A DNA stretch of 56,756 bases from Amycolatopsis jejuensis (GTDB taxonomy: Bacteria > Actinomycetota > Actinomycetes > Mycobacteriales > Pseudonocardiaceae): positions 1 to 56,756 of the forward strand of contig NZ_JNYZ01000046.1 in NCBI RefSeq assembly GCF_000717335.1, read 5' to 3'. A program made the position numbers and the translations under genes. Positions 8,244 to 36,418 of this stretch are shown here, piece after piece. A model generated the notes under the pieces. It had not been told where the DNA came from. It saw only the letters and a list, made by a program, of their open reading frames with translations, and searched no databases. Each line of letters begins with the position of its first letter. Position 1 is the first letter of the stretch.

Positions 8244-9008
8244 TCAGCGGCCCTCCCACCGTGGCGGGCGCTTCTCCGCAAAAGCACGCGCCCCCTCCTG
8301 CGCGTCGGCCGAGTCCTCGATGTGCCCGATGACCCCGTCCTGCCGTTCGAAAGCCTCCGCGAGAGGCCAGTCCCCGCTTTCCACGATCACCTGCCTGCTC
8401 GCCTGCACGGCCAGCGGCGCGTTGGCGGCGATCGTCCCGGCCAGGTCGAGGGCGGCCGACAGCGCCTCGCCCGGTTCGGTCACCCGGTTGACCAGGCCGT
8501 GGTGCGCCGCGGTGGCTGCGTCGAGCAATGCGCCGGTCAGGGCCAGTTCCATCGCCAAGTGGTACGGCAGCCGCCGCGGCAACCGCAGCAAGCCGCCGCT
8601 TGCGGCTACCAGGCCGCGGCGGACTTCGGGGATGCCGAACGCCGCCGTGCGGGCCGCAACCACCAGGTCGCAGGCCAGTACCAGTTCGAAACCACCAGCC
8701 AGCGCGTAGCCCTCGACGGCGGCGATGACCGGTTTGCGCGGCGGTCGGCGCACCATGCCGCCCAGGCCACGGCCGGGCAGGGTGACGTCCTCGCCGCGGA
8801 GGAAGGCCTTCAGGTCCATACCTGCACAGAACGTTCCGCCTGCGCCGGTCAGTACGCCGAGGACGAGGCTGTCGTCGCCGTCCAGTTCATCGAGGGCAGC
8901 GGCGAGCGCACGCGTCACTGCAGCGTCGATCGCATTGCGGGCTTGCGGCCGGTTGAGCGTGACGACCTGGATCGCGCCCTGCCGTTCGACCAGCACCGGT
9001 TCCGTCAT
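8244..9008 (-). CDS. Enoyl-CoA hydratase/isomerase family protein
   Basis: 254-residue crotonase-fold protein, which typically hydrates or isomerises enoyl-CoA thioesters. Oxyanion-hole elements are seen in GTFCAGMDLKAF and in the later GYALAGGFELVLACD. IPEVRRGL holds the usual first acidic residue, but the region that normally reads GAGGTQRL is AASGGLLRL, so the exact reaction may not be simple hydration. The ATG shares ATGA with the stop of the CMD gene upstream. It is the last gene of a tightly overlapping run that starts at 13564. Confidence 0.88.
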   Translation of the reverse strand: MTEPVLVERQGAIQVVTLNRPQARNAIDAAVTRALAAALDELDGDDSLVLGVLTGAGGTFCAGMDLKAFLRGEDVTLPGRGLGGMVRRPPRKPVIAAVEGYALAGGFELVLACDLVVAARTAAFGIPEVRRGLVAASGGLLRLPRRLPYHLAMELALTGALLDAATAAHHGLVNRVTEPGEALSAALDLAGTIAANAPLAVQASRQVIVESGDWPLAEAFERQDGVIGHIEDSADAQEGARAFAEKRPPRWEGR

Positions 9009-9664
9009 GACTCCGCCTCTCGCAGTTCCTCGAGCAGGATCGGCATCGCCACCTCGACGGTCTGCAGCCCGATCAGGCTCGCGACCTCCAGCACCGCCAT
9101 CACTTCCGCGGGCGTCGCGCCGTACCCGAGCGCATTCTCGATGTGCACCTTCAATCCCGGTACGTACATATGCGTCGCCGACGCGTCGATCGCGACGTAC
9201 ACGAGTTCCCGCAGCTTCGGGCTCAGCGTGCCGCCCTGCCACGGGATCGCCGAGAACTCCAGGTACGCCGCGAAAAACCCGGGGTCGAGCGCGAGTACCT
9301 GCTCCCACACCGGATCCCAGTACCCGCGCCGCGCGATGAACTCCGCCTTGAGCTCCGGCCGGGTCGCCTCCGGCGGGCCGGGCAGCAGCGGTACGCCGGT
9401 CGACACCGCGTGGATGCCGACCACGGACACCAGCTGCAGCACCGCGGTGATCTCCGCGCGGCTCGCGCCCTCGGCCAGCGCGCCGCGGATGTGCCTTCGC
9501 AGACCGGGTTCGTGCAGATGCGTCGCGGACGCGTTCACCGCGATCGCGATCAGCTCGCGGACCTTCGGCTCCAGCGCGGGCGCCTCGGCGAGCGCAGCGC
9601 ACGCGGCGAAGAATTCCGGATCGGACTCGGCCACCGCCTGCCACACGGCGTCGGCCGGGTTCAT
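9005..9664 (-). CDS. Tandem carboxymuconolactone decarboxylase (CMD)-like protein
   Basis: 219-residue protein with two CMD/AhpD-like helical repeats. Each carries the matching segment ASATHxxxPGLxxHI, at about residues 53-67 and 157-171, so the gene arose by internal duplication. Neither copy has the CxxC pair of AhpD peroxidases. A decarboxylase, lactonase or ring-cleavage-product role is therefore more likely than redox. The ATG shares ATGA with the end of the monooxygenase gene. A longer upstream extension of this frame is only the shadow of that gene. The partner flavin monooxygenase suggests it acts on an oxidised intermediate, which is inference. Confidence 0.82.
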   Translation of the reverse strand: MNPADAVWQAVAESDPEFFAACAALAEAPALEPKVRELIAIAVNASATHLHEPGLRRHIRGALAEGASRAEITAVLQLVSVVGIHAVSTGVPLLPGPPEATRPELKAEFIARRGYWDPVWEQVLALDPGFFAAYLEFSAIPWQGGTLSPKLRELVYVAIDASATHMYVPGLKVHIENALGYGATPAEVMAVLEVASLIGLQTVEVAMPILLEELREAES

Positions 9665-11112
9665 CCGCGCCGCCGGCGCCGGACGAAACCGAAGTACGGC
9701 AGGATTTTCGTGAGCAGGTAGTACTCGCCGTGCGGCCGCGGCCACTGGGTCACGTTGCGGCCGCTGGCCGAGTGGTAGTAGTTGGTACAACCCGCTTCCA
9801 TCACGGGCGTGCTGCGCAGCAGTTCACGGTCGATCCAGCGCACCCACCGCCGCGCCGCGCCCGGTTTCGTGTCCACCACCGAACCGCGCCGCATCCGTGT
9901 GACGGCCTTCGCGGCCACTTCAGCCTGACGTTCCAGCTGCGCGACAATCGAAAACCCGCCGTTGGTGTTCGGGCCGTAGAGCATGAAGAAGTTCGGGAAT
10001 CCGGGCACCGTGATGCCGAGGAACGCGGACGGCTCGCCGTTCCACACCTCGTGCAGGCTCGCGCCGCCGACGCCGCGTACCTCCATCGACGCCAGAAAGC
10101 TCGTCGTGCGGAAGCCGGTGGCCATCACGAGCACGTCGATCTCGTGTTCGGTGCCGTCCGCAGAAACGATTCCCTTCGGGGTCATCTCGGTGACCGCGTG
10201 CGGGACCAGCTCGACGTTCGGCCGGTTCAGCGCCGGATAGAACCCCGTGGCCTGCACCGGCCGCTTGCATCCCCACGGGTAATCGGGGGTCAGCTGGGCG
10301 CGCAGGACCGGATCGGCAATGGTGGTTGCGAGGTACTCCCGGCATTTCTGCAGGTTCGCCTTCTGCTGCTTGCTGGCGAGGTCGTAAGCCTTGAACATCT
10401 GCCGGAACTGGTAGAAGAGATGTGCGCGACGGGCTTTCTGCAGGAGCGGGAACCGCCGGAACCGCGCGCGTTCCCGCGGCGTGAAGTCACGCTCGCCCTT
10501 CGGCAGGATCCAGGCGGGCTGGCGCTGGAACACGTACAGCCGGTCGACCTGGTCCGCGATGGCGGGCACGACCTGGGTGGCTGTGGAGCCGGTGCCGACC
10601 ACGGCCACGCGCTTCCCGGTGAGGTCGTGCTCGTGCTCCCACCGCGCGGTGTGGAACTTGACACCGGCGAACTCGTCCATCCCCGGCCATTCCGGATACC
10701 GCGGCTCGTTGAGCAGGCCGAGGCAGCTGATCACCGCGTCGAACCACTTCGTCTCGCCCCCGGCCAGCCGGACCTCGTAGCGCGCGACTTCCTCGTGCCA
10801 GGTCACCGCCTCCACCGCGACACCGAACCGGCAGTGCCGCCGCAGGTCGAAGCGGTCCAGCACGTGTTCGGTGTACGCCTGCAGTTCAGGCTGGGTGGCG
10901 TGCGTGCGCGCCCAGTCGTAGGTGAGGAAGGAGAAGGAGTACGCGTGCGAGGCGATGTCGACCTCGCAGCCGGGATACCGGTTGTCCCACCAGGTGCCGC
11001 CGGGTCCGGCAGAGCGCTCGAAGACGGTGAACGTCTCGATCCCGCGTTGCCGCAGCTTGACTGCCGCGGCGATCCCGCCGAGTCCACAGCCGATGATCGC
11101 CACCGTGGTCAT
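9661..11112 (-). CDS. Flavin-containing monooxygenase, Baeyer-Villiger type
   Basis: 483-residue FAD/NADPH monooxygenase. The FAD Rossmann motif GCGLGG is at 8-13, the fingerprint FAGVKFHTARW at 148-158 matches the Baeyer-Villiger consensus FxGxxxHxxxW, and the NADPH motif GTGSTA is at 173-178. It would insert one oxygen next to a ketone, giving an ester or lactone, or oxidise a heteroatom. It overlaps the M20 gene upstream and the CMD gene downstream by 4 nt each, so the three are made together. Ester products could be substrates for nearby hydrolases. The actual substrate cannot be read from the sequence. Confidence 0.9.
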   Translation of the reverse strand: MTTVAIIGCGLGGIAAAVKLRQRGIETFTVFERSAGPGGTWWDNRYPGCEVDIASHAYSFSFLTYDWARTHATQPELQAYTEHVLDRFDLRRHCRFGVAVEAVTWHEEVARYEVRLAGGETKWFDAVISCLGLLNEPRYPEWPGMDEFAGVKFHTARWEHEHDLTGKRVAVVGTGSTATQVVPAIADQVDRLYVFQRQPAWILPKGERDFTPRERARFRRFPLLQKARRAHLFYQFRQMFKAYDLASKQQKANLQKCREYLATTIADPVLRAQLTPDYPWGCKRPVQATGFYPALNRPNVELVPHAVTEMTPKGIVSADGTEHEIDVLVMATGFRTTSFLASMEVRGVGGASLHEVWNGEPSAFLGITVPGFPNFFMLYGPNTNGGFSIVAQLERQAEVAAKAVTRMRRGSVVDTKPGAARRWVRWIDRELLRSTPVMEAGCTNYYHSASGRNVTQWPRPHGEYYLLTKILPYFGFVRRRRRG

Positions 11113-12362
11113 CGCGACATCAGCCCCGCCAGCACGCGGGCGCCGAACTGCAGCGCGTCGACCGGACAGCGCTCGTCGACGCCGTGGAACATCGCGGGAT
11201 AGTCGTAGCCGGGTGGCAGGAGCATCGGGGTGAAGCCGAAGGTCTGCATACCCAGCCGCTGGAACCATTTGTTGTCCGTGCCGCCGCTGAACACGTACGG
11301 CGCGGCGGTGCTGCCGGGTAGCTCGTGGGCCAATGCTTCGGTCATTCTGGTGAACCACTCACCGTCGTGGTCCGTCCAGGCGGCGGGGCTGCGGCGGAGC
11401 AGGGTGGCTTCACCGGCGGTCATGTGCTCGTGCAGGTCGTCCTCGAAACCCGGTACGTAACGGCAGTCGAACCGCGCCCACGCCTCGCCGGGGATCACGT
11501 TTTCCTTGTACCCGGCGCCGGTCATCGTCACGTTCACGGTGTTGCGGGCCCCCGCCGCCAGCATGCGCGCGAACGGGCCGGTACGGGTTTCGAGGACGTC
11601 CAGGACGTCTTCTGCTGCGGTGACCGGTCGTCCGGCGAGGCTCGTGGCGAGGGCCCGCATCGGTTCGGTGACGGCAAGCGGCTGCTCCCCCGCGATCAAC
11701 CGGTCGACGGTGGCGGCGAGCTTCGGGATCGGGTTGTCCTCGGCGACCATACTTCCGTGGCCCGCGATTCCCTGCTCGCGGACCTCATACCAGCGTAACC
11801 CTTTGTCCGCAACGGAAATCGCGAACACCGACGGGGTCACGTTGAATCCGCCGACCTCCCCGATCGCCGCCTGGCAACCTTCGAACAGCTCCGGGTGATG
11901 GCGGACCAGGTATCCGGCGCCGTGCTCGCCGCCGGTTTCTTCGTCGGCGAGAAAGGCCAGGACGACGTCTCGCTCGGGTTGTTGTCCATTTGCGACAGTA
12001 GTGTCCACTGCAGACAGTGTCATCGCGACCGCGTTCTTCATGTCGACCGCGCCACGGCCCCACACGTAACCGTCAGCGATCTCGCCGCTGTGCGGGTCGA
12101 CCGACCAGGCTGCTGCGTCGGCCGGAACAGTGTCCAGATGGCCCTGCACCAGCAAGGCAGGCAATTCCGGATCGCGGCCGGGCCAACGGGCCACTATGTT
12201 CGTGCGGCCCGGAATCTGTTCGTACACCGCGGGTTCGAGTCCGAGGTCGGCCAGGAACGCGGCGACGTATTCCGCTGCCGGACGCTCGTTCGAGCCGGGA
12301 TTGGTGGTGTCGAAACGGATCAGGTCACTGCAGATCTCTTCGACCGGTTTGCGTCCCGTCAC
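11109..12362 (-). CDS. M20-family metallopeptidase/deacylase (ArgE/DapE/ACY1 group)
   Basis: 417-residue two-zinc amidohydrolase with all usual ligands: H75-L-D77 in GHLDTVP, D107 in GAVDMKN, the catalytic pair E141-E142 in DEETGG, and the late His in MFHGVDE. It would hydrolyse an N-acyl amino acid or peptide amide bond. GTG at 12362 is the start because it forms a GTGA overlap with the stop of the paralogous gene upstream, the pattern seen across this operon. Together with that paralogue it may process an amide intermediate of the same pathway. ArgE, DapE and succinyl-diaminopimelate roles cannot be separated here, though the context argues against biosynthesis. Confidence 0.88.
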   Translation of the reverse strand: MTGRKPVEEICSDLIRFDTTNPGSNERPAAEYVAAFLADLGLEPAVYEQIPGRTNIVARWPGRDPELPALLVQGHLDTVPADAAAWSVDPHSGEIADGYVWGRGAVDMKNAVAMTLSAVDTTVANGQQPERDVVLAFLADEETGGEHGAGYLVRHHPELFEGCQAAIGEVGGFNVTPSVFAISVADKGLRWYEVREQGIAGHGSMVAEDNPIPKLAATVDRLIAGEQPLAVTEPMRALATSLAGRPVTAAEDVLDVLETRTGPFARMLAAGARNTVNVTMTGAGYKENVIPGEAWARFDCRYVPGFEDDLHEHMTAGEATLLRRSPAAWTDHDGEWFTRMTEALAHELPGSTAAPYVFSGGTDNKWFQRLGMQTFGFTPMLLPPGYDYPAMFHGVDERCPVDALQFGARVLAGLMSR

Positions 12363-13564
12363 CGGCCGCCACCGAGGGTGAGCGCAGCGACCGCGTACGT
12401 TTTCACTGCGGTGAGGTAATCGGCGATGAGCACGGATTCGTCGTCCCAATAACAATCCATCGAGCCCGGGCCATAGGTGACGGCCTTGATTCCGGCCTCC
12501 CAGAAGATCGGGGTGTCCGGCCAGGCTTTGTGCACGTCGAAACTTGCCGCTTCGCCGGTGGTTTCCCGATGTGCGGCGGCGACGTCGAGCACAATGCGTT
12601 CGTCCGGCGACATTTCCAGGGAACTGCGCGGGTTCTTGACGCACGTTGCTTCCAGACTGACATCAACCGGGAACTCGGCGAGCCGGTCCAGCGAACGGCC
12701 GACCGCGGCGCGGACATCGCGTAACACATCGTCTTGGGTTTGGGCGGCGGGAAAACGGAAGTCGAAAGTGATGTCGCAACGCTCTGGTACGAGGTTGTGC
12801 GCGACTCCACCGGAGACCTGGGCGACGTTGCATACCTTGACGTCCGGCAGTTCCCGTCCATTGTGGTCGGTGATCGGCATTGCCAGTACTTCGCGAATGA
12901 CCTCCGCGGCGCGTTCCACCGCATTGACCCCGATGTCCAGCGCGGTGGTGTGCGCGGCGCGGCCGCTGACCGTCACGGTCACGTACGCAATTCCGCGTTG
13001 CCCGGTCAGCACTCGCATATCGCTCGGTTCGCAGTTGATGGCGTACTCGGCTTCGAGACCGTCGCGAATTGCCTGCCGGGTTCCTTCCCCGCCCTCGAAA
13101 TGATTCGGCACTGCCAGCACGACGACATCCCGCGGTGGCCGCAGTCCGGCTTTGGCGAGCATTACCGTCGCCATGGTCATGGCCGCGGTTCCGGCCTTCA
13201 TGTCCGACACGCCGACGCCATAGATCCGGCCGTCCTCGATGTCTCCGCCGAATGGATCCCGTTTCCAAGACTGCGAAGGCGGGTAGACCTCCATGTGTCC
13301 ATTGAGGACGACCGGACCGGCGTCGCCACCGCGGTACCGCGCGAGGACGTTGGGCATGCCGTCGGTGCCCGAGTACGGCAGGTCCACGTCTACGCCCGCT
13401 TCCCGCAGCGGTACCGCGAGGTGTTCCGCGGCGGCGGTGAGCGCCGGGCCGTCGCCCCAGACACTGGGGATACGCAGGAAGTCCCGGAGAAAGGTGACGA
13501 GCTGGTCGGTGTGCTGATCGATGACGGCGATCGCCTGTCCGGTTTCGGTCGCTGCGGTCCGCAT
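12359..13564 (-). CDS. M20-family protein with altered metal site
   Basis: 401-residue protein with the M20 fold. The central dimerisation region has SGRAAHT, and H90 and D121 (VSDMKAG) are conserved. Other key positions differ from the paralogue downstream: H-x-D reads H90-M-E92, the catalytic Glu-Glu pair is replaced by H155-F156 in NHFEGGEG, and the late His ligand is absent in MDCYWDDES. The frame is long and undamaged, so this is not decay. It may have another catalytic chemistry or a partner role. It is the first gene of the leftward run ending at 8244. Start is the ATG at 13564. About 40 nt upstream is a TACGCT -10-like box, and about 78 nt upstream is an element shared with the aldehyde dehydrogenase gene. 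Confidence 0.82.
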   Translation of the reverse strand: MRTAATETGQAIAVIDQHTDQLVTFLRDFLRIPSVWGDGPALTAAAEHLAVPLREAGVDVDLPYSGTDGMPNVLARYRGGDAGPVVLNGHMEVYPPSQSWKRDPFGGDIEDGRIYGVGVSDMKAGTAAMTMATVMLAKAGLRPPRDVVVLAVPNHFEGGEGTRQAIRDGLEAEYAINCEPSDMRVLTGQRGIAYVTVTVSGRAAHTTALDIGVNAVERAAEVIREVLAMPITDHNGRELPDVKVCNVAQVSGGVAHNLVPERCDITFDFRFPAAQTQDDVLRDVRAAVGRSLDRLAEFPVDVSLEATCVKNPRSSLEMSPDERIVLDVAAAHRETTGEAASFDVHKAWPDTPIFWEAGIKAVTYGPGSMDCYWDDESVLIADYLTAVKTYAVAALTLGGGR

Positions 13565-13636
13565 TGCGCAAGTCCTTTGTGGATGGCGAGGGATGCTTCG
13601 AGCGTAGGAGGTCCGGTGGCGTGCCGTCTTGGGCCC

Positions 13637-13669
13637 GGCGCCCCAAAGAACCTCGGCGGGCGTTATGCC
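13637..13669 (-). promoter_or_regulatory. Shared 33-nt upstream element, copy 1 (possible PucR-type site)
   Basis: Matches the stretch 20718-20750 at 25 of 33 positions without gaps. The core reads TTCTTTGGG on the minus strand and the outer part CATAAnGC. It ends 73 nt above the ATG at 13564, and a TACGCT -10-like box (13601-13606) lies between. The core resembles the first half of the PucR box reported in Bacillus (WWWCNTTGG). It overlaps the stop codon of the SGNH gene at 13663. Binding by the local PucR protein is inferred. Confidence 0.5.
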
Positions 13670-14775
13670 TGCGGCACAGGCAGGAGCCCCCCGGCGCCGA
13701 AGGTCGCGTCGTGGAAGCGTTCGGCGATGACGCGGTAGCCCTCCGCGGTGGGGTGGAGGCCGTCGTACAGGTACTCGGCGTCCAGCAGGGTCAGGCCGTC
13801 GAGGTAGTTCAGGTGCTCGTCTTTGCGGACGGTGACCATCTCGCGGACGATTTCCCGCATCCGCCGTAAGGTGAAGGCATCTTCCGACGGTTCGCCGGAC
13901 GCTGCGTAACGACCGTCCGGACCTTGCGGCGTCGGCCCCGCCCGGTTTTCCGCCGAAGGGAAAACGATGGGTGACACCACGAGGATCGGGGTCTCCGGAT
14001 GTCCTTCGCGGATGGTGTCGAGGAAACCGTGCAGCGCGGGGCCGAATGTGCGGAGGCTCATGGTCGCCATGTTCAGCACGTTCACCGCGACCTTCAGGCT
14101 GATGACTGCGGCCGGAGTATCCCGGATGGTGCGTGCGATGAACGGGTCGAGGTGACAGCTTCCGGCGAACGCCAGGCACAGCAGGTCGAGTCCGGTCTGC
14201 CGGGCGACGAGCGCGGGCCAGGTCGCGGTCGGGCTGCTTGCCTCGGCGCAGTGGCTGATCGAACTGCCGTAATGGATCCAGCGGGGTGCGGTGATCGGGT
14301 CCGGTTCGATTTCGCCGTCCGCATCCAGGGCCTGGAGTTCGACCACCGACGCCTGCGGAAGCCAGATCTCGACGCTTTTCCGGCCTTCGGGGAGCTCCTC
14401 GAAGAGAATCGTTTCGGCATTTCCGGCGGTGCGCTCGACGACTGCTCCGGCGTCCACAATGCACAGATCTCCGGCGGTGGCGGGCCGGGATTGGGCCAGG
14501 TCGCCGTCGAGGACCAGGTCGAACATCACCGGGGGCAGCGGGAAGTGGATGTTGCGGAACCGGGTCACGCGGACGTCCAGTTTGAGGCTGCGGGCGGTGG
14601 TGCGGAACACGAGCCGCACCCCGGCCGGGCGGGGTTCCACCAGGTTGAGGTACGGGTCGGTGGCCTGCACCCGGGTCCACGCGGGCAGCCGGCGCGGGAG
14701 GACGCCGCCGGGGCGGGGTTCGAGGTCCAGCGCACCCGCGATGGTGACGCGGTCGTCCGGGAACTCGATGCGCAT
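13663..14775 (-). CDS. SGNH/GDSL-family hydrolase
   Basis: 370-residue predicted esterase or deacetylase. The C-terminal SGNH domain carries block I GSSISH with the nucleophilic Ser, a GSCHLDP segment, the sequence VAVNVLN where the block III Asn is expected, and block V DGLHPTAEGY with the catalytic Asp-His pair. The first ~150 residues look like the beta-sandwich domain that precedes SGNH domains in related proteins. There is no signal peptide. The ATG overlaps the CaiB stop as TGATG, so it is coupled to the CoA-transferase gene. The ester substrate is unknown. It may hydrolyse an ester made by the nearby Baeyer-Villiger enzyme, which is speculation. Confidence 0.85.
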   Translation of the reverse strand: MRIEFPDDRVTIAGALDLEPRPGGVLPRRLPAWTRVQATDPYLNLVEPRPAGVRLVFRTTARSLKLDVRVTRFRNIHFPLPPVMFDLVLDGDLAQSRPATAGDLCIVDAGAVVERTAGNAETILFEELPEGRKSVEIWLPQASVVELQALDADGEIEPDPITAPRWIHYGSSISHCAEASSPTATWPALVARQTGLDLLCLAFAGSCHLDPFIARTIRDTPAAVISLKVAVNVLNMATMSLRTFGPALHGFLDTIREGHPETPILVVSPIVFPSAENRAGPTPQGPDGRYAASGEPSEDAFTLRRMREIVREMVTVRKDEHLNYLDGLTLLDAEYLYDGLHPTAEGYRVIAERFHDATFGAGGLLPVPQA

Positions 14776-15908
14776 CAGCTCTCCTGCCTGATCCATTCGC
14801 CGATGAGGTCGTTGTGCTCGCCCAGCTCCGGGGCCGGGCGGAAGCTGTCGACGGTGCCGGTCGTGCGGACGCCGGTGTCGAGGGTGCGGAATCCATCCGG
14901 TTCCGTGCGCACTAACCCGCGTGCCGCGACGCTCGGTTGCGCCAGCGCTTCGCGCACACTGAGCACCGGTCCACAGGGGACACCTGCCTCGGACAGCACT
15001 TCGATCGCTTCGTCACGGGTCATTCCCGCGAGTGCGGATTCCACTTCGGACTGGAGCGCATGCCGATGCCGCGCACGGTCTGCGTCACTGCGGTAGCGGC
15101 CGTCGACCAGCCACTGTGGACGGTCCAGCGCATCGGCGAGTTTGGCGAACAACGCGTCGCTGGCAACGGCAATGGCGACGGGCTCGTCCTTGGTCGCGAA
15201 GGTGCCGTAGGGTGCGCTGACCGCGTGGTGACTGCCGGTCGGCGCCATGTCCTCGGTGGTATGCAGGGCGCGCATTGCCGTCGATTCGAGTACTGAGATG
15301 AGGCTGTCGAACATCGCCACGTCGAGGTGCTGACCGCGACCGGTCCGGTTGCGCTCGTGCAGCGCGGAAAGCGTTGCCACGGCGGCGTAAAGGGCCGGGA
15401 CGATGTCGCCGATGCTGATCCCGACCCGCACGCCGGGGCCACCGTCGGGCCCGGTCACCGACATGAGGCCGGAGAGCGCTTGCACGATGAGGTCGTACGC
15501 GGGTTTGCCCGCCGACGGCCCGGTCTGGCCGAAACCACTGATGCTCACCGCGATCAGCCGCGGGTTGAGCCGGTGCAGCTCGTCGGGCGGGAAGCCGAGC
15601 CGGCCGAGGACGCCGGGGCGGAAGTTCTCGACCAGGACATCAGCGCGCCGGATCAGGCCGGCCAGCCGCTCGCGGCCGTCGTCGGTGCGCAGGTCGAGGG
15701 TGATGCCGTATTTGTTGCGGTTCAGCAGGCGGTGGAAGGTGCTCACACCCGCTTCGGTGAACGGCCCGAAATGCCGCGCGTCGTCGCCGGTGGGAGCCTC
15801 GACTTTGATCACTTCGGCCCCGAGATCGGCGAAAATCCGCGTGCACATCGGGCCGGACAGAATCCGGCTGAGATCGACGACGCGGACGCCTTCGAGTGCG
15901 CCAGTCAT
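14775..15908 (-). CDS. CaiB/BaiF family CoA-transferase (class III)
   Basis: 377-residue class III CoA-transferase, which moves CoA between carboxylic acids through an aspartyl-CoA intermediate. The N-terminal GVRVVDLSRILSGPMCTRIF block, AEVIKVE, NRNKYGITLDL and the catalytic Asp139 in KPAYDLIVQA are all present. The start is the ATG at 15908, giving the canonical short leader before VVDLS. It lies just downstream of hutU, 31 nt away, and is coupled to the SGNH hydrolase gene. Its place beside hutU and ABC, acyl-CoA synthetase and acyl-CoA dehydrogenase genes suggests it activates the carboxylic acid degraded by this region. Confidence 0.93.
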   Translation of the reverse strand: MTGALEGVRVVDLSRILSGPMCTRIFADLGAEVIKVEAPTGDDARHFGPFTEAGVSTFHRLLNRNKYGITLDLRTDDGRERLAGLIRRADVLVENFRPGVLGRLGFPPDELHRLNPRLIAVSISGFGQTGPSAGKPAYDLIVQALSGLMSVTGPDGGPGVRVGISIGDIVPALYAAVATLSALHERNRTGRGQHLDVAMFDSLISVLESTAMRALHTTEDMAPTGSHHAVSAPYGTFATKDEPVAIAVASDALFAKLADALDRPQWLVDGRYRSDADRARHRHALQSEVESALAGMTRDEAIEVLSEAGVPCGPVLSVREALAQPSVAARGLVRTEPDGFRTLDTGVRTTGTVDSFRPAPELGEHNDLIGEWIRQES

Positions 15909-15939
15909 GCGGACCGCCGCGGGTGGGCGGGGAGTGCGC

Positions 15940-17550: not shown

Positions 17551-17581
17551 GCCCTGCCCTTCTCTCGAAATCGGCGGAATG

Positions 17582-20643: not shown

Positions 20644-20717
20644 GGCGCTCCGCTCAAGCCGTACCGGGGTGATCGGTGGCCAAGCGTAAAGTCGAATCGC
20701 CGCCGCCGGTCCCGGCC

Positions 20718-25099: not shown

Positions 25100-25114
25100 T
25101 CGGAGACAGTGTTC

Positions 25115-25903: not shown

Positions 25904-27996
25904 TGACCGGACACCCTCTCGACCGGCTGTTCCGGCCGGCCAGCATCGCCGTGGTCGGCGCCTCCCCCAAGGGCGGCTACGGTCTGCGGACGCTGCGCAA
26001 TACGCGAAGTCTCGGCTTCGCGGGGCGGTTGTACGCCGTCCATCCGCGACACTCCGAAGTGGACGGAGTGGCGGCGTACCCGGCATTGCGCGACCTGCCG
26101 GAAGTGCCGGACGCCGTTGCCCTGGCAGTCCCGGCACCGTCCATTCCGGACCTTGTCGACGAGGCCACGGAACTCGGTGTGGGCGCGATGGTGGCGTACG
26201 CCGCCGGGTTCGCCGAGCGCGACGCGGCGGGCCGGGCGTTGCAGGAACGGCTCAAGACCGGGATACCAGTGGTGGGGCCTAACTGCCTCGGGGTCGCAAG
26301 CTATCGGGGGCGGGCGGCGTTGTGGGGCATTGAAATGCCTTATGGCCACGCCGAAACCGAAGGCGTGGTAGCTCTCGCGGCGCAGAGCGGGAACATGGCG
26401 CTGACCACGATGCTGTCCGGGCGGCTGCCGTCGGTCGCTTATGGAGTGTCGGCGGGGAACCAGGCAGTGGTCGATGTCGCGGATTGCCTGGAGTACTACC
26501 TGACCGACCCGGCGGTCCGCGTGGTCGCGCTCGTCATCGAAGGGTTACGCGATCTGCCGCGGTTCCGGGAACTGGCGTTGCGGGCGGCTGAGCAGGACGT
26601 GGCGATCGTCGTGCTCAAGGTCGGCCGTTCGGCGCGCGGTGAAGCGGCGACGCTCGCGCACACCGGAACCCTCGCCGGTCGCGATAGTGCGTACACGGCA
26701 CTGTTCAGGCAGACCGGGGTGTACCGAGTGGACGATCTCGACGAGATGATTGCGTTGTGCCGCTTGCTGGCTGCACCGCGTCGTCCGCGGGGCCGGTCGC
26801 TGGGGCTGTTCGCCAGCTCGGGTGGGGAATGCGGGCTGCTGTCCGACCTGGCCGAGGACATCGGGGTCCCGCTGGCGGAATTGGACGAGCCGACGGCGCA
26901 GGCGATGGCCGAAGTGGTCCCGGATCATGCTGCAGTCGCCAATCCGCTCGACCTCACCGCAGGTGCCTGGGGTCAGCTCGACGTGTACGCCAAGGCCACC
27001 CGTGCGTTCGGGGAATCACCCGACGTGGACGTGGTCGCGTTCGTCGGCGACGCTCCGACGTACTCGGAACCCTTGGCCGGTAACGGATGGCCGGAAATGG
27101 TCGGCGGCGCGGGCAAAGCCGCGGCCCAGCTCGACGTCCCGGTCGCGCTCATCACCACGACCACCGACATCGTCCGTGACCTCGATGAACTGGCCGAGGA
27201 GCACGGGGTGGTGCTGCTGGCCGGAGTACGTCCGGCGTTGCGGGCCATTGCGCTGGCCGGAACCCCTCGTCCGCGATCCAGCGCTCCCGCGGCGGAATCC
27301 GGGTTACGCGAACAAGCGCTGGGTCTGCTCAAAGAGCCGGTGCTGACCGAGACCAACGGCAAAGATCTCCTTGCCCTATACGGACTTCCGACCCCTTCCG
27401 GCCGATCGGTCGGCGACCTCGAAGCGGCGGTGACGGCAGCCGAGGAGATCGGCTACCCTGTCGTCGCGAAACTGGAAGCGCCTGGTCTTACGCACAAGTC
27501 CGACATCGGCGGCGTCATCACCGGCCTGGCCGATCAAGCCGCCGTCCGCACGGCCTTCGCCGCCCTGATCGACCGAGGTCAGGCGCTCGGTACCCCGCTG
27601 CGCGTGCGGATCGAGCAGATGGCGAGTCCGGGAGTCGAGCTGATCGTCGGCGGCCGGAACGACCCGGCGGGCTCGCTGGTCGTCATCGGCGCCGGTGGAG
27701 TGCTCACCGAATTGCTGGCCGATGCCACGGAACTGTTGTGGCCCTTTGGTTCCGACGAGGTCATCGCCGCGTTGGACACGCTCCGGATCAACCGGCTCCT
27801 GCGCGGGTACCGCGGCGCTCCCCCGGCCGACGTCGCCGCGATTGCCGACGCGGTCGTCCGGATCGGACAGCTGCTGCACGAACTGCCCGAGGTGACCGAA
27901 CTCGACGTCAATCCGCTGCTTTGCACCGAAAACGGCTGCCTCGCGTTGGACGCACTGGTCGCCGTGGACCCGGCCGGGAAAGGACAGCACGACTGA
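25900..27996 (+). CDS. Acyl-CoA synthetase, ADP-forming (acetate-CoA ligase type, single chain)
   Basis: 698-residue fusion of the alpha and beta parts of NDP-forming acyl-CoA synthetases. The order is an N-terminal CoA-binding Rossmann domain (PASIAVVGASPKGGYG, then VGPNCLGVAS), succinyl-CoA-ligase-like domains with the phospho-His region in AHTGTLAGRDSAY, and a C-terminal ATP-grasp domain (AAEEIGYPVVAKLEAPGLTH, then ELDVNPLL). It makes an acyl-CoA from acid, ATP and CoA. It is coupled to the enoyl-CoA hydratase upstream (ATGA) and the dehydrogenase downstream (TGATG). It and the CaiB transferase give the region two ways to activate an acid. Confidence 0.92.
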   Translation: MMTGHPLDRLFRPASIAVVGASPKGGYGLRTLRNTRSLGFAGRLYAVHPRHSEVDGVAAYPALRDLPEVPDAVALAVPAPSIPDLVDEATELGVGAMVAYAAGFAERDAAGRALQERLKTGIPVVGPNCLGVASYRGRAALWGIEMPYGHAETEGVVALAAQSGNMALTTMLSGRLPSVAYGVSAGNQAVVDVADCLEYYLTDPAVRVVALVIEGLRDLPRFRELALRAAEQDVAIVVLKVGRSARGEAATLAHTGTLAGRDSAYTALFRQTGVYRVDDLDEMIALCRLLAAPRRPRGRSLGLFASSGGECGLLSDLAEDIGVPLAELDEPTAQAMAEVVPDHAAVANPLDLTAGAWGQLDVYAKATRAFGESPDVDVVAFVGDAPTYSEPLAGNGWPEMVGGAGKAAAQLDVPVALITTTTDIVRDLDELAEEHGVVLLAGVRPALRAIALAGTPRPRSSAPAAESGLREQALGLLKEPVLTETNGKDLLALYGLPTPSGRSVGDLEAAVTAAEEIGYPVVAKLEAPGLTHKSDIGGVITGLADQAAVRTAFAALIDRGQALGTPLRVRIEQMASPGVELIVGGRNDPAGSLVVIGAGGVLTELLADATELLWPFGSDEVIAALDTLRINRLLRGYRGAPPADVAAIADAVVRIGQLLHELPEVTELDVNPLLCTENGCLALDALVAVDPAGKGQHD

Positions 27997-29156
27997 TGGA
28001 TTTCACCATTCCCGAGGAACTGCGCGATTTCCGCGCGGCGGTCCGGCTGTTCGTCGACAAAGAGCTCATTCCGCACGAGGACTACGTGGAAGAGCACGAC
28101 GGGCTGCCCGAGGACGTCGAACGCGAGATCCGCCGCAAAGCCGTGGCGCTCGGGCTGAACGGGCTCGGCATGCCCGAGGACGTCGGCGGCGCCGGGCTCG
28201 ACGTGCTCGGCCAGGTGCTGGTCACCGAGGAGCTGTTCCGTGCGCTCGGCGGCGTCGCGGAGGCGGTCCCGGCCACCCCGCGGATCCTCCTCGAATGCGT
28301 CGGTGACCAGCGCGAAAGGTACCTGCTGCCGTCCGTGCGCGGCGATCGGCAGTGGTGTTTCGCCCTCACCGAACCGGACACCGGCTCCGATGCGGCGGGG
28401 ATCAAGACCCGCGCGGTGCAGCGCGCCGGGCAGTGGGTGATCACCGGCCGCAAGCGGTTCATCAGCCACGGCGACTCCGCCGATTTCGCCATCGTGTTCG
28501 CGGTGACCCACCCGGACCGGGAACACGACCGGATCACCGCATTCCTCGTCGACAAGGGCACCCCCGGATTCGGCGTCGGGCAGATCCACAAAACCATGGG
28601 CCACCGCGGGTACCGGCAAGCGGAATTGCTTTTCGACGAATGTGCGGTCCCGGCCGAGAATGTGCTCGGCGAACCCGGGCGCGGCTTTTCCCTCGCGCAC
28701 GGCGGGCTCAGCGCCGGCCGCGTGATGACCGCGGCGCGGTGCCTCGGCCCGATGGCCCGGCTCATCGACGAGGGCGTCGAATGGGCCAAGCAACGGGTGC
28801 AGTTCGGTCGCCCGATCGCGGACTACCAGGCAATCCAGTTCATGCTCGCGGACTGCGCGACCGACCTGCACGGCGCGCGGCTGATGACCTACCACGCGGC
28901 GTGGGCGGCCGACCAGGGCGAACCGGCGAAGATCGTGAGCGCGAAAGCGTCCGCGGCCAAGCTGTTCGCGAGCGAGGCACTCGGCCGGGTGGCCGACCGC
29001 GTACTGCAGATCTTCGGGGGAACCGGGTACATGAACGAAACCTATGTGGAACGTGCCTACCGCAACGCGCGGATCGAGCGGATCTGGGAGGGGACCTCGG
29101 AGATCCAGCGCGTGATCATCGCGAGCAACCTGCTCAAGCGTGGAATGTTCTCGTAG
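27996..29156 (+). CDS. Acyl-CoA dehydrogenase
   Basis: 386-residue FAD enzyme that introduces the alpha,beta double bond of an acyl-CoA. The substrate/FAD segment CFALTEPDTGSDAAG, the motif VQFGRPIADYQAIQFMLAD, LQIFGGTGYM, and the terminal catalytic Glu in ERIWEGTSEIQRVII are all standard. The start ATG overlaps the synthetase stop (TGATG). Together with the preceding synthetase and hydratase it gives activation, dehydrogenation and hydration of one acid in a single transcript. Confidence 0.95.
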   Translation: MDFTIPEELRDFRAAVRLFVDKELIPHEDYVEEHDGLPEDVEREIRRKAVALGLNGLGMPEDVGGAGLDVLGQVLVTEELFRALGGVAEAVPATPRILLECVGDQRERYLLPSVRGDRQWCFALTEPDTGSDAAGIKTRAVQRAGQWVITGRKRFISHGDSADFAIVFAVTHPDREHDRITAFLVDKGTPGFGVGQIHKTMGHRGYRQAELLFDECAVPAENVLGEPGRGFSLAHGGLSAGRVMTAARCLGPMARLIDEGVEWAKQRVQFGRPIADYQAIQFMLADCATDLHGARLMTYHAAWAADQGEPAKIVSAKASAAKLFASEALGRVADRVLQIFGGTGYMNETYVERAYRNARIERIWEGTSEIQRVIIASNLLKRGMFS

Positions 29157-29199
29157 GGGACGGACCCCTGCGAGAGCCGGACAAGAAGGACGGTTCATC

Positions 29200-30312
29200 A
29201 TGAGCACAGACGGATTCCCCTCCGGTCCGCTGTCCCGGCGCAGCGTGCTCAAGCGCGGCGCGCTGCTGGCCGGCGGGATCGCCGCGCTCGGCGGCAGCGG
29301 CCTGCTGGCCGCGTGCGGCAGCGGGAGCAGCGGCGGGTCCGGCGGCGGCAGCAAACGCGTCGTCGTCGCGGACTGGGGCGGTGCGCTGCAGGACGCCGAG
29401 AAGAAGTACATCTACGACCCGTTCAGCAAGGAGACCGGGATCGAGGTCGTCCTTTCCGGACCGCCGACCACCGCGAAGATCAAAGCCATGGTGGACACCG
29501 GAAACGTCGAATGGGACCTGATCGCCGGCGGACCGTCCACCGTGCTCCCGGTGGGCCGCGACTACTTCGAGGACCTGCCTGACAAACTCCGCACGATCCC
29601 CGGCATCGATCCGGCCTATGTGGACCCGAAGTGGCTCACCTACTACCTGTTCTCGGTGGTGCTCGGCTGGAACTCGAAGGCGATCGGCGGCGCGAAGCTG
29701 ACCGGCTGGCAGGACATGTGGGACGTCGCGAAGTTCCCCGGCAAGCGCACGATGCGCGGTGCCGACCAGGGCGTGCCGCCGGACCTCGAGTTCGCGCTTC
29801 TCAGTGCCGGGGTGCCGAAGGACAAGCTGTACCCGATCGACCTCGACAAGGCGTTCTCGCAGCTGCAATTGCTCAAGCCGAACGTGCCGCAGTGGTGGAC
29901 GACCGGGTCGCAGCCGGGTCAGATGCTGGTGAGCGGCCAGGCCGCGGCGGCGAGCATCTTCTCCGGCCGGGTCGACGCGCTGCGCAAGCAGGGTGCGCCG
30001 CTGGACTTCACCTGGAACGGCGGCATGCTGCAGCTGGCGTCGTGGTCGGTGCCACGGGGAGCGCCGAACAAGGAGAACGCGTTCAAGCTGGCGGAGTTCT
30101 CCGTGCGGCCGGACATCCAGGCCGCGGTGTGGAGCAACTACAACAACGGCCCGGCCAACACCAAGGCGCTCGACCTGATGGACAAGGAACTCGCGAAGTC
30201 CATGCCGTCGTACCCGGCGAATGCCGAGGTGCAGTTCCTGAACGGCGCCTCCTGGTGGGGCCAGAACCGCGAGGCCGTACTGAAGCGGTTCCAGCAGTTC
30301 GCCGCGACCTGA
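29200..30312 (+). CDS. Extracellular solute-binding lipoprotein, Tat-exported (PotD-like)
   Basis: 370-residue binding protein. The N-terminus has a twin-arginine motif SRRSVLK at 12-18, a hydrophobic stretch, and a lipobox LLAAC with C39, so it should be exported folded and lipid-anchored outside. A Gly/Ser linker follows, then the periplasmic-binding fold of the spermidine/putrescine and phosphonate group (VVVADWGGALQDAEKKYIYD near the start, WNGGMLQLASWSVPRGA late). AGAAGGA precedes the ATG by 9 nt. It is the capture subunit for the ABC importer at 22267-25099 although three enzyme genes lie between. Confidence 0.93.
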   Translation: MSTDGFPSGPLSRRSVLKRGALLAGGIAALGGSGLLAACGSGSSGGSGGGSKRVVVADWGGALQDAEKKYIYDPFSKETGIEVVLSGPPTTAKIKAMVDTGNVEWDLIAGGPSTVLPVGRDYFEDLPDKLRTIPGIDPAYVDPKWLTYYLFSVVLGWNSKAIGGAKLTGWQDMWDVAKFPGKRTMRGADQGVPPDLEFALLSAGVPKDKLYPIDLDKAFSQLQLLKPNVPQWWTTGSQPGQMLVSGQAAAASIFSGRVDALRKQGAPLDFTWNGGMLQLASWSVPRGAPNKENAFKLAEFSVRPDIQAAVWSNYNNGPANTKALDLMDKELAKSMPSYPANAEVQFLNGASWWGQNREAVLKRFQQFAAT

Positions 30313-30326
30313 GCCGAGGAGACTTC

Positions 30327-31115
30327 ATGGAATCACTGCAGGGCCGCGCTTATCTCGTGACCGGCGGCGGGACCGGGATCGGCGCGGCCACCGCGCTGCG
30401 GCTGGCGGAGCAAGGCGCGTCGGTCGCCGTGCTGGGCCGCCGCCCGGAACCGCTGGCGAAAGTCGTGGCGGCCATCGAGGAGCTCGGTGGCACGGCGCTG
30501 GCGTGCCCGGCCGACGTACGGGACCCGGTCGCGGTCGAGTCGTGCGTCGACGCCGTGGTCGAGCGCTTCGGCCGGATCGACGGGCTGGTCAGCAACGCGG
30601 CCGGGAACTTCGTCACCCCGGCGGAACGGTTGTCCCCCAACGGCTGGCGGGCGGTCGTCGACATCGTCCTCAATGGATCGTGGAACTGTACGTCGGCGGT
30701 CGCGCGGCGGCTGATCGAGGCGGAACGTCCGGGCGCGATCGTGAGTGTGGTGGCGACGTACGCGTGGACGGGTCATCCGGGCACTGTCCACAGTGCAGCG
30801 GCGAAGGCCGGGGTGGTCGCGATGTCGAAAACCCTGGCTGCGGAATGGGCTCGGTACGGTATCCGGCTGAACTGCATTGCCCCCGGGCCCACGTCCACCG
30901 ACGGCGCGGGCGCGGCGTTGTGGGCGTCCGACTCGGACAAGGCGCGGGTGCTGGCTTCGGTGCCGTCCGGCCGGTTCGCCACGCCGGACGAGGTCGGCGA
31001 CCTGGCTGCGTTCCTGCTCAGCGACCGCGCGGCCTACGTGACCGGCACTGTCCTCACTGCCGATGGCGGGCAGTCTCTCGGACAGCAGATCTACGGGCCG
31101 CCGATCACCGCGTGA
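30327..31115 (+). CDS. SDR-family reductase, 2,4-dienoyl-CoA reductase-like
   Basis: 262-residue short-chain dehydrogenase. The cofactor motif TGGGTGIG is at 12-19 and the Asn of NAAG at 90. The classical YxxxK reads H155-S-A-A-A-K160, so the usual Tyr is missing. Instead Y145 sits 15 residues before K160, with S156 four before it, the same spacing as Tyr199, Ser210 and Lys214 in human mitochondrial 2,4-dienoyl-CoA reductase, whose surrounding sequence it also resembles. An NADPH-dependent reduction of a conjugated dienoyl-CoA fits the operon. GAGGAG precedes the ATG. Its 3' end overlaps that of convergent hutI by 11 nt. Confidence 0.88.
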
Positions 31116-32265
31116 ACGCCCGGGTGCCGCGACGGAGTACAGAGTGGACAGTCGCGACACCCGGGCGGTACGCCAGGTACACCGGCGACGGGGCGTCGAG
31201 TACGACGGCATCGGCGTAGGCGCCGGGTGACAGGCGGCCGATGTCGTCGCGGCGCAGGGCCTGCGCGCCGCCTTGGGTAGCTGACCACAACGCTTCCTCG
31301 GGCGTCATTCCCATTTCCCGCACGGCCAGCGCAATGCAGAACGGCATGCTGGTCGTGTACGCCGAGCCCGGGTTGCAGTCGGTGGCCAGTGCGACGGTTA
31401 CGCCTGCGCCGAGCATCCTCCGGGCGTCCGGATACGGCGAGCGGGTGCTGAACTCGGCCGCAGGGAGCAGGGTTGCCACGGTTCGGCTTCCGGCGAGCGC
31501 GTCGAGGTCGCGATCGGTCAGGTACGTGCAGTGGTCGGCGCTTGCGGCGTCGAACTCGACGGCCAGCGCTACGCCTTCGTCGTGATGGAATTGGTTGGCG
31601 TGGACTCGTAAGCCCAAACCGGCCGAGCGGGCGGCTTCGAGGACTGCCTGGGTTCGGTCGGCGTCGAATCCGCTTGCCTCGCACGATACGTCGGCCCACT
31701 TGGCGTGCGGTGCGCAGGCTTCCAGCATGGGACCGGTCACGAGCGCGACGTACTCGTCCGGCCGGTCCTGGTATTCGGGCGGGATCACGTGTGCGCCGAG
31801 GAAAGTGACCTCGTCGGTCACGCTCCCGGCGGCTTTCAGCGACCGGACCTCGTCCGCGACGGTCAGGCCGTAGCCGCTCTTGACTTCCAGCGTGGTGGTG
31901 CCGGACGCCAAGGCTTCTTGAGACAGCCTCGCCGCGGTGGTCAGGAGCGCGTCGTCGGCAGCGGCGCGGGTGGTGCGGATGGTCGTCGCGATTCCGCCGG
32001 TGGTGTAGCGAGCGCCGCTCATCCGGGCGGCGAATTCCTCCGCCCGGTCGCCCGCGAACACGACGTGGCTGTGACTGTCCACAAAGCCCGGAACCACACA
32101 GCGACCGTCCACATCGGACTGCAGATCGGCGTCCGGCGCGGCCGACTGCGGGCCCACCCACGCAACCCGATCGTCCTCGACGACCATGGCCGCGGCCGGG
32201 ATTGCGCCGTACGCCGGATCCTGGGTGACCAGCAGTCCGATCCCGGTGATGAGCGTCGCGGTCAC
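31105..32265 (-). CDS. hutI: Imidazolonepropionase
   Basis: 386-residue amidohydrolase of usual HutI length. It opens 4-imidazolone-5-propanoate to N-formimino-L-glutamate, the step after urocanate hydratase. Metal ligands start in [13 protein letters not shown]; the HutI segments [43 protein letters not shown] and [14 protein letters not shown] are present. The GTG at 32265 overlaps the stop of the CMD-like gene (GTGA). It is last in a four-gene operon with CMD, MBL-fold and EthD-like genes. hutH and a formiminoglutamate hydrolase are not in the window. Confidence 0.94.
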
Positions 32266-32801
32266 GGGAATCCGGGCTTGCCGGGGTCGATCTCCACGCC
32301 GATCGAGTTGAGCGTGACGCTGACCGTCCAATAACGACCGACCACCGCCAGCAGGTCGAGGATCTGGTCGTCCGCATAGGTTTCGGCCAGCTGCGCCCAG
32401 GTCGACGGGCTGATCCGGGCCGACTCGTGCAGTTCGTCCACGGCCCGCAGCAGGGTTGCTTCGAAGTCTGTCCATCCGGGAGCGTCCGGGCCTTCGGTGA
32501 CCCGTGCGACGTCCTCTTCGGACAGTCCGGCGTCCTGGCCGTAGACGGTGTGCATGCCGAACTCGTAGGCCGACTGGCACCGCCAGCCGATCCGCAAGAT
32601 CGCCAGCTCGCGATGCCGCGCAGGCAGCGTCGAACCGTGGAAGATGTAGTCCTGCAACGCTCGCTGGGCCTTCATCAAGCCCGGATTACGCGCCCAGGTA
32701 CGGGAAATGTTCGCGGTCCCCCGCCGAGCCCGGTCGCCGAACAATTCGTCTTCGAGGCGGTGGTACTCGCCGACCGGCACCGGCTCGATCCGCGGCCCCA
32801 T
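32262..32801 (-). CDS. Carboxymuconolactone decarboxylase/AhpD-like protein
   Basis: 179-residue helical protein of the CMD family. The region [20 protein letters not shown] then YEFGMHT, followed by GLSEEDV, is typical of the single-domain group, which keeps the E-x-x-x-H element without the CxxC of AhpD. The ATG at 32801 overlaps the MBL-fold gene stop by 1 nt (TGATG) and the stop overlaps hutI. The function is not known. The operon suggests it works on a substrate of the same pathway. Confidence 0.82.
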
Positions 32802-33673
32802 CAGGACGCCGACCGGTCGAGGACGACCGCGTGGAAGCCTCCGCCTGCGGCAAGCTGTACCTGGACCCGCGTGGGAATCGGGAAATGCGGCGCGAGCACC
32901 ACGGCGTCCCGCTCGGCGGCCAGCTGGGCAATGTACTCGCGGCTGGCCACGGACTGCTCGGGCGCGTAATCGATCACCGGCAGCCAATGATGGTGGTCCA
33001 GATGCACCGGATGGTGGGCGAGATCCCCGGCCAGGAGCACGGTCTGCCCGCCCGCCGAAACCATCACGCACACGTGCCCGGGGGTGTGGCCGGGGGTCGG
33101 CAGAATCGTCACTGCATCGGACAGCTTGACCTCGCCGTCGAACGTACTCAGCCGGCCCCGCACCGCCTCGACGCGCGGCCGCACCGCGGCGAGCATCTTC
33201 CGGTTGGCCTCGATCTTCTCGACCTCGTCGCCGGTCCAGTAGGCCAGCTCGGCTTCGTGCAGGTACACCGTGGCGTTGGGAAAGGTCGGTGTGTACGCGT
33301 CGTCCTTCACCAGCCAGCCGCAATGGTCGGCGTGCAGGTGGGTCTGCACGATCCGGTCGACGTCTTCGGGCGCGATGCCGAGCCCGGCCAGCCGGTCGAG
33401 CATCTCCCCGGCGCCGTCGAGCCCCGCGACGTCGTGCGCGCGGTGCCCCCAGCCGGTGTCGACCAGGGTGACGTGCCCGTCGCCGGTGATCACGAACCCG
33501 CCGAAGTTCACCGGGAACGGCGTGTCCGGGTCGGCCACCCCCACCACGGGTACCCATTCGGCGGGGTCCGCGCCGGTGAACCAGCTCCGCCGCGGACCGG
33601 ACAGGGCCCCGTCGCTGAGGTGCGACACGTGCACGTCACCGGCTCGGATGGTGTCGACTGGGATCACTGTCAC
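32801..33673 (-). CDS. MBL-fold metallohydrolase
   Basis: 290-residue metallo-beta-lactamase-fold hydrolase of the lactonase/glyoxalase-II-like group. The metal motif T-H112-L-H114-A-D116-H117 is intact, the downstream His is in GHTPGH, the bridging Asp is in LLAGDLAHH, and the last His is in APHFPIP. Such enzymes open lactones or hydrolyse thioesters. The start is taken as the GTG at 33673, which forms a GTGA overlap with the EthD-like gene; a second in-frame GTG lies two codons later. A thioesterase or lactonase acting before hutI would fit the operon. Confidence 0.85.
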   Translation of the reverse strand: MTVIPVDTIRAGDVHVSHLSDGALSGPRRSWFTGADPAEWVPVVGVADPDTPFPVNFGGFVITGDGHVTLVDTGWGHRAHDVAGLDGAGEMLDRLAGLGIAPEDVDRIVQTHLHADHCGWLVKDDAYTPTFPNATVYLHEAELAYWTGDEVEKIEANRKMLAAVRPRVEAVRGRLSTFDGEVKLSDAVTILPTPGHTPGHVCVMVSAGGQTVLLAGDLAHHPVHLDHHHWLPVIDYAPEQSVASREYIAQLAAERDAVVLAPHFPIPTRVQVQLAAGGGFHAVVLDRSAS

Positions 33674-34341
33674 TCCTCGGAAAGGGGCTGGTATTTCACG
33701 CGCCACCGCACGTCGCGCTTGTCCCATGCGGGTGGTCCGGGCGTGAGCGGCGCGGGCGGATCGGTCCGTGCGCCGGTTCCTTCGTACACCGCGCAAAACC
33801 GCGGGCAACCCGGGTCGGGATGGCGGAATTCGTGCCACAGCTCGAGCCGGGTGCCACGGTCGTAGCCGAACCCGGAGACGATCTCGGGCAGGTGCGTTTC
33901 GCTGTAGTAGGTGTCGAACGCCGTGAGCGCGGCCGCATCTGCGTCCGGCGGCGGGCTCATCCCGATCAGGGACAAGCGGGTCGGCGGCGCGGTGAGCTGC
34001 CCGGACACCGCTGTGGTACGCCAGAGCATCCGCCACACCGGTTCCGCGCGCTTCCACGCGGGCGGCCCGGGCGAGTACGTGGGCCGCTCCCGCGCCACGA
34101 AATCCCGTGCGGCCTGCTCGTTTTCGACGCCGTACGCCGCCAGCCATCGCGGTACCTGCAGGTCGGGCTCGGTCACCTCGAACCGCGCCGCGGGCCCGAA
34201 GCCGCTGTTGAACCGCAGGACCTCGGCGAGATGGACATCGGTGTAATACCGGTCGAAGGCGGCCATCTCTTGAGAGTTCTCGTCCGGGCGGGTGGTCACG
34301 CCGACCACGAACACGAACGGAGAACCGAAAACGTCGGTCAC
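33670..34341 (-). CDS. Tandem dimeric alpha/beta-barrel (EthD-like) protein
   Basis: 223-residue protein with two copies of a ferredoxin-like stress/EthD module. FDRYYTDVHLAEVLRF and FDTYYSETHLPEIV, about 105 residues apart, are the matching segments; each copy also has a PGPPAWxxR turn. These domains assist mono-oxygenases or bind small ring compounds. The first gene of the hutI operon. The GTG at 34341 is preferred: TTGACG and TTTGAT boxes with 17-nt spacing end 7 nt before it and there is no Shine-Dalgarno sequence, suggesting leaderless translation. GTGs at 34359 and 34371 are in frame and cannot be excluded. Confidence 0.75.
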   Translation of the reverse strand: MTDVFGSPFVFVVGVTTRPDENSQEMAAFDRYYTDVHLAEVLRFNSGFGPAARFEVTEPDLQVPRWLAAYGVENEQAARDFVARERPTYSPGPPAWKRAEPVWRMLWRTTAVSGQLTAPPTRLSLIGMSPPPDADAAALTAFDTYYSETHLPEIVSGFGYDRGTRLELWHEFRHPDPGCPRFCAVYEGTGARTDPPAPLTPGPPAWDKRDVRWRVKYQPLSEE

Positions 34342-36410: not shown

Positions 36411-36418
36411 TCTTGAAC

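Follow-up and report, generated by a model that had tools for sequence, protein, structure and literature searches.

What does a urocanase homologue do among genes for import and coenzyme A (CoA) chemistry, on a contig that carries no gene for histidine ammonia-lyase (hutH)? The question is raised by contig NZ_JNYZ01000046.1 of Amycolatopsis jejuensis (C46), whose 56,756 nucleotides, with a G+C content of about 70%, form the window analysed here and which belongs to a 136-contig genome of 10.1 Mb. A sequence-only reading had proposed that the urocanase (hutU-like, 15940..17550, minus strand) and a second imidazolonepropionase (HutI-2, 31105..32262, minus strand) serve a new route from an imidazole acid into the histidine pathway. 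Judged by family scores, tree position and active-site residues, the window urocanase is neither a canonical HutU nor a thiourocanate or S-methyl-thiourocanate hydratase and represents a separate subfamily. It is embedded in a block of about 18 genes common to several soil actinomycetes, a recurrence that exceeds chance. We tentatively favour the view, which we consider quite possible though short of probable, that the block is a dedicated CoA-dependent cluster importing and degrading a C2-substituted imidazole acid, with a 2-thioimidazole alkanoic acid, or a precursor of one, as the likeliest substrate.

A urocanase apart from the described families

The window urocanase has the Pfam Urocanase N, core and C domains and, like canonical HutU and every other urocanase scanned, passes the broad profile TIGR01228 (708 bits, cut-off 375). 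Its best-scoring family is thiourocanate hydratase (NF058530), although the 814 bits obtained lie below the cut-off of 930, and it also stays below the cut-off of the S-methyl-thiourocanate hydratases (NF058531, 765 bits against 880). In a first comparison of ten proteins, PDB 7ned, L016 and L021 exceeded 930 bits and P0002, P0011, P0014, P0017, P0028, P0046 and P0049 fell below. The reference 7ned reaches 1020 bits and, together with L016, L021 and L031 (1009 bits), spans 1009–1036, and PDB 8q9v scores 954 bits to NF058531, above its cut-off. In a tree of 61 rows, with groups chosen by the analyst, the window clade (25 rows, 100/97) stands apart from both the thiourocanate hydratases (100/99) and canonical HutU (100/100). 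Environmental sequence supplies many members of this clade; where a source is named, the protein is labelled plain urocanate hydratase or hutU. The nearest homologue, at 89%, is from Actinosynnema sp. CS-041913.

We have surveyed the active-site residues at 80 urocanase loci, using the window numbering, in which positions 393 and 437 are taken, by alignment offset, to correspond to Cys410 and Arg454 of the Pseudomonas putida urocanase. All 16 loci of thiourocanate type have Gly or Ala at 393, His at 397 and IMT at 437–439 (IMTE). Among the 62 canonical-type loci, Cys393 is found in 60 (Ala in L058 and L077) together with RET at 437–439, and His397 in a single one (L065), the position being mostly Tyr, Leu or Gln. 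The window clade, of which L015 (Spongiactinospora sp. TRM90649) is a member among the 80 loci, combines Ser, Ala or Gly at 393 with His397 and a retained RET in 25 of 25 rows, the window protein itself having Ser393, His397 and Arg437 (RETE). One further locus, from a Spirochaetaceae metagenome-assembled genome (MAG; L027), fits no group: its urocanase has Cys393 with His397, RET and SAGA, scores below both thio cut-offs and adjoins importer genes, a lyase of ASG type and HutI.

Compared with the characterized relatives, the window enzyme resembles thiourocanate hydratase (7ned) in its small residue at 393, its His397 and its GGGGY motif, with about 57% identity (by eye) to 7ned and 55–59% to 7ned relatives (tblastn). 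It differs in having RETE rather than IMTE, in its score, in its own clade and in lacking a nearby ergothionase-type lyase, as is present at 14 of the 16 thiourocanate-type loci. With S-methyl-thiourocanate hydratase (8q9v, Gly at the 393 equivalent, His at 397) it shares the small residue, the histidine and RETE; unlike it, the window enzyme has GGGGY instead of NGDKS and falls in a different clade. With canonical HutU it shares the three-domain build, whereas Ser393 and His397 replace Cys and the usual Tyr, Leu or Gln. Among the thiourocanate-type loci, that of a Hyphomicrobiales MAG (L021, 1021 bits) encodes, no more than 7 kb from the hydratase, a family III CoA-transferase and an acyl-CoA dehydrogenase, and no lyase was found in its available flanking DNA.

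Canonical histidine genes elsewhere in the genome

A profile search of the whole genome (PF00221, PF01175, TIGR01224) for hutH and for further copies of hutU and hutI recovered a full set close together on another contig, C10, in which hutH carries the CSG form of the 4-methylideneimidazole-5-one (MIO) motif and HutU scores 900 bits to TIGR01228. Contigs C24 and C12 account for two further PF00221 genes, and the PF00221 search gave no match on C46. The reported absence of hutH therefore applies to the window contig and does not extend to the genome, and the suggestion that the histidine pathway uses other copies than the window hutU and hutI agrees with this complete C10 set. The same set rules out the window HutU as a sole copy serving a distant hutH. 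The arrangement is unlike that of a histidine utilization operon, since hutH is not with hutU and hutI on C46 and all three are together on C10.

A conserved block of import, CoA and urocanase genes

The genes around the urocanase form two divergent arms and a third unit, each presumably co-transcribed, judging from strand and spacing. Start positions were assigned with a GC-position heuristic, and some of them are approximate. A gene was counted as present in relatives at 38% identity or more, and only loci reaching its place were considered. With this measure 18 block genes recur, mostly complete and in order and with few losses, in 16 other genomes, so that the neighbourhood comparison across actinomycetes shows the importer, synthetase, acyl-CoA dehydrogenase and crotonase to be tied to the urocanase as one conserved unit, as the sequence-only reading had supposed. 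The urocanase was found in one of 390 genomes of its own family (1e-270). In the family of Spongiactinospora it was found in 16 of 341 (1e-230), and these are the 16 carriers. A phylum-wide search at 1e-205 gave two of 396 genomes, namely the window's own and one with a 60% match of apparent canonical type. The block of L015 sits on a contig of 855 kb that is titled a plasmid in its record, a label only.

The minus-strand arm begins with a PucR-type regulator (20767..22080, start approximate; PF13556, PF17853; 15/15 loci) and continues with an aldehyde dehydrogenase (19219..20643; PF00171; 15/15), a thiamine diphosphate (ThDP)-dependent enzyme (17582..19231, start approximate; TPP_enzyme N, M and C; NF005470 at 506 bits, cut-off 495; 16/16) and the urocanase (16/16). 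It then runs through a family III CoA-transferase (14775..15908; PF02515; 13/16) and an SGNH/GDSL hydrolase (13663..14796; PF14606, PF13472; 16/16). These neighbours of hutU had all been named before and are borne out by profile matches on the same strand. Further along are two M20 amidohydrolases, b (12359..13564; PF01546 and PF07687; 14/16) and a (11109..12362, start approximate; PF01546; 15/16; best PDB match aminoacylase-1, at 69 bits), a flavin monooxygenase of Baeyer-Villiger type (9661..11112; PF00743; 15/15) and a double carboxymuconolactone-decarboxylase (CMD)-like protein, CMD2 (9005..9664; PF02627; 15/15). These last four, together with the regulator, had been overlooked. The monooxygenase has cyclohexanone monooxygenase as its best PDB match and contains both FxGxxxHxxxW and GGxWxxxx[FY]P[GM]xxxD, which we take to be the type I Baeyer-Villiger fingerprints. 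The arm closes with a crotonase, ECH1 (8244..9008; PF00378), which is confined to the window lineage (0/14 loci), so that it does not belong to the core.

On the plus strand, the divergent arm holds two ATP-binding cassette (ABC) permeases (22267..23130 and 23139..24017; PF00528; 15/15 each), a PotA-like ABC ATPase with a TOBE domain (24014..25099; PF00005, PF08402; 14/14), a second crotonase, ECH2 (25109..25903; PF00378; 14/14), an NDP-forming acyl-CoA synthetase (25900..27996; PF13549, PF13607, PF13380; 14/14), an acyl-CoA dehydrogenase (27996..29156; PF00441, PF02770, PF02771; 14/14), a PotD-like solute-binding protein (29140..30312; PF13416; 12/12) and a short-chain dehydrogenase (SDR; 30336..31115, start approximate; PF13561; 12/12, in G671 over about 15% of its length). 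The importer, synthetase, dehydrogenase, enoyl-CoA-hydratase-type crotonase and SDR described between hutU and hutI are thus all present. In ECH2, Asp and Tyr occupy the two positions assigned to the catalytic glutamates of enoyl-CoA hydratases, and ECH2 is therefore probably not a plain hydratase.

The third unit, again on the minus strand, runs from an EthD-like protein with two halves that match each other (33688..34341; 51% to a G671 protein; 9/12) through a metallo-beta-lactamase (MBL)-fold hydrolase (32801..33643, start approximate; PF00753, HxHxDH; 10/12, one at 30 kb distance) and CMD1 (32262..32804, ends approximate; PF02627; 10/12, two at 25–29 kb distance) to HutI-2 as the last gene. 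This is the order given previously, the EthD-like protein having no Pfam match at 1e-3 and owing its tentative name to that earlier description and a motif. The casting of HutI as a core pathway enzyme has to be given up: HutI-2 (TIGR01224, 361 bits, cut-off 298) belongs to the window lineage and is absent from all 12 loci that extend to its position. Its nearest homologue (76%) has the same source name as that of the urocanase, Actinosynnema sp. CS-041913, and HutI-2 therefore appears to go with the block at least in that lineage.

A second importer/CoA/urocanase cluster

In one carrier, G671, a second cluster with its own HutU adjoins the block (contig C210, about 28.8–45 kb; L159, L168). 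It comprises a CoA-transferase, an acyl-CoA dehydrogenase, a TauD-family dioxygenase, an amidase, a solute-binding protein, permeases, an ATPase, a synthetase, a crotonase, HutU and another CoA-transferase. This HutU is of canonical type (816 bits to the hutU profile) and has GHCRW where the other aligned urocanases have GPFRW. Eleven of 338 genomes, each of them a block carrier, have an orthologue of at least 88%, with the next match at 66% among the matches listed. In nine of these genomes the second cluster and the block are on separate contigs, in G638 they are about 585 kb apart, and a urocanase search of the window genome did not find this second HutU there. The hypergeometric value for the co-occurrence, 3e-17, ignores shared ancestry, leaves carriers G690 and G691 outside the matches listed and serves as a guide only.

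The favoured pathway

The reading of the block as a CoA-dependent route for a C2-substituted imidazole acid draws on the canonical hut set elsewhere, the conserved block, the separate clade, the residues at 393 and 397, the eight of 16 carriers with no MIO-less lyase and the second importer/CoA/urocanase cluster in 11 carriers. The PucR-type regulator may sense the compound, the PotABCD-like importer would take it up and the NDP-forming synthetase would convert it into its CoA ester. A side-chain double bond could then be set by the acyl-CoA dehydrogenase with an isomerase-like ECH2 and the SDR, after which the CoA-transferase or a reversed synthetase would release a C2-modified urocanate for hydration by the urocanase homologue. 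HutI-2 might open the ring in the window organism, and the MBL or M20 hydrolases might do so in relatives. Baeyer-Villiger-type monooxygenases can S-oxygenate thiocarbonyl compounds, and the one encoded here is a candidate for oxidizing a sulfur at C2. In its more specific form the proposal is an ergothionase-free CoA pathway in which a saturated C2-modified acid, for example 3-(2-thioimidazolyl)propionate, is turned into a C2-modified urocanate for the new urocanase subfamily, often beside a second cluster whose substrate would be a related acid without the modification and of common origin; this we consider possible, if somewhat doubtful.

Two known routes offer parallels. The predicted hydration of a C2-modified urocanate is what the ergothionase and thiourocanate hydratase route performs; unlike ergothioneine breakdown, the block is without an ergothionase and has CoA-activation genes, an importer, a monooxygenase and a ThDP enzyme. 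A pathway for ergothioneine sulfonate, grouped with it here, reportedly also exists. As in imidazolylpropionate oxidation, the saturated side chain of an imidazole acid would be desaturated to an acrylate, whereas there the imidazole is plain. If the proposal is true, it would give the urocanase family a new substrate class and identify genes by which imidazole breakdown is entered through side-chain oxidation. The pathway might then also serve as an aerobic sink for imidazoles that contain sulfur. A search of the open-licence literature found no paper describing this cluster or any CoA operon acting on imidazole propionate, a weak negative with most subscription papers outside its scope.

Several observations weigh against this proposal. 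The residue signature is not strict, given Cys with His in L027 and Cys393 in P0051 and P0096, which lie in or beside the thiourocanate clade, and that residues 393 and 397 would face C2 of the ring and track its substituents is a link that we infer. The window clade keeps Arg437, absent from thiourocanate hydratases, and its ligand may therefore differ from thiourocanate. The AlphaFold model has a mean pLDDT of 79.6 but is weak in much of the active site, with the segments 427–449 and 473–481 below 50. The CoA-transferase is absent from three of the 16 loci, and the carriers' common descent inflates the association of the two clusters. The proposed steps leave the ThDP enzyme, aldehyde dehydrogenase, SGNH hydrolase and CMD proteins without a role.

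Alternative explanations

The block might instead belong to known ergothioneine catabolism, with an ergothionase elsewhere making thiourocanate, the window enzyme being a divergent thiourocanate hydratase and the CoA genes having a separate role. The best-scoring family of the window enzyme speaks for this, and so does EgtB in the same genome (452 bits, cut-off 360), which makes ergothioneine-related compounds plausible near the organism. Ergothionase is described as a lyase without MIO (PMC13405746). An MIO-less ammonia-lyase relative (GAIGT-GDL) is indeed encoded in the window's own genome (L163, G000:C24:2780-4219). Six other actinomycetes, all of them block carriers, have homologues of it (about 50%; L229–L234), and two of these, G630 and G683, also have a GSLGSGDL lyase resembling the one beside a Brevibacillus thiourocanate hydratase. 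However, the C24 lyase adjoins a phosphofructokinase-like gene, outside any catabolic block, and in eight of the 16 carriers all PF00221 genes found bear MIO: five (G390, G658, G682, G690 and G691) have a single one, a CSG HutH, and three (G638, G645 and G684) have two each. In G649 and G673 the PF00221 matches were read only in part. The urocanase itself stays below 930 bits, keeps Arg437 and has no lyase nearby (nor was a PF00221 lyase found in the 21.6 kb of the L015 locus), and in relatives the CoA genes are tied to it. On balance we regard this explanation as unlikely.

The survey of lyases at the other loci provides the background for these comparisons. The 14 lyases at thiourocanate-type loci all lack the MIO tripeptide. 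Lyases are found at 30 of the 62 canonical-type loci, 26 of them with ASG, one (L085) without MIO and three outside the reading pattern. In the L085 lyase, from Paenibacillus eucommiae, GSVGYLTHM replaces the MIO motif; its gene and a canonical-type hutU are about 1.6 kb apart, and the L107 and L108 lyases resemble this one.

It is also conceivable, though again improbable in our estimation, that a larger natural product is degraded, its ester, amide and ketone bonds being cleaved by the SGNH, M20, MBL and monooxygenase enzymes, and that the urocanase acts late on a fragment with an amino, sulfo or methylthio group at C2 or with another ring. The content of the block beyond simple acid breakdown (the SGNH hydrolase, two M20 proteins, monooxygenase, MBL hydrolase, CMD proteins and ThDP enzyme) would fit such a role, but the larger substrate is hypothetical.

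Bacteria are known from older literature to grow on imidazolylpropionate via urocanate, and the sequence-only reading had supposed that unmodified imidazole propionate is taken up and, in a CoA-dependent manner, desaturated to urocanate, on which HutU and HutI then act. The importer, synthetase, acyl-CoA dehydrogenase and CoA-transferase do adjoin the urocanase, although this chemistry is better matched by the second cluster with its canonical-type HutU. The window urocanase falls outside the canonical clade and does not have that clade's residues at positions 393 and 397, HutI lies outside the core and a canonical HutU for urocanate is already present, and we therefore hold this version to be quite unlikely. 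A 2-thio acid, or one with another substituent at C2, appears more likely than unmodified imidazole propionate because the residues in question are common to both hydratases of C2-modified urocanates and not to canonical HutU. The idea of a new imidazole-acid route accordingly survives through the conserved import, CoA and urocanase unit, its "modified urocanate" variant fitting better and its plain imidazole propionate variant less well.

That spare ordinary hut genes came by chance to lie beside an unrelated CoA cluster is very improbable: HutI-2 is near ordinary actinobacterial HutI (up to 69%) and absent from the loci of other families, but the urocanase sits within the block among the same neighbours in the other 16 loci and is no canonical HutU.

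Genes beyond the block

To the right of the block, the flanking genes (FhuF-like, CbtA, GMC and a second aldehyde dehydrogenase) were found at none of the 12 loci. The pair of a GMC oxidoreductase and an aldehyde dehydrogenase at 36382-39656 is likewise not conserved with the block. A further catabolic stretch occupies 45663-56444 of the window and includes an FAA hydrolase, an amidase, a LacI regulator, an M24 peptidase, an ABC importer and a class III aminotransferase.

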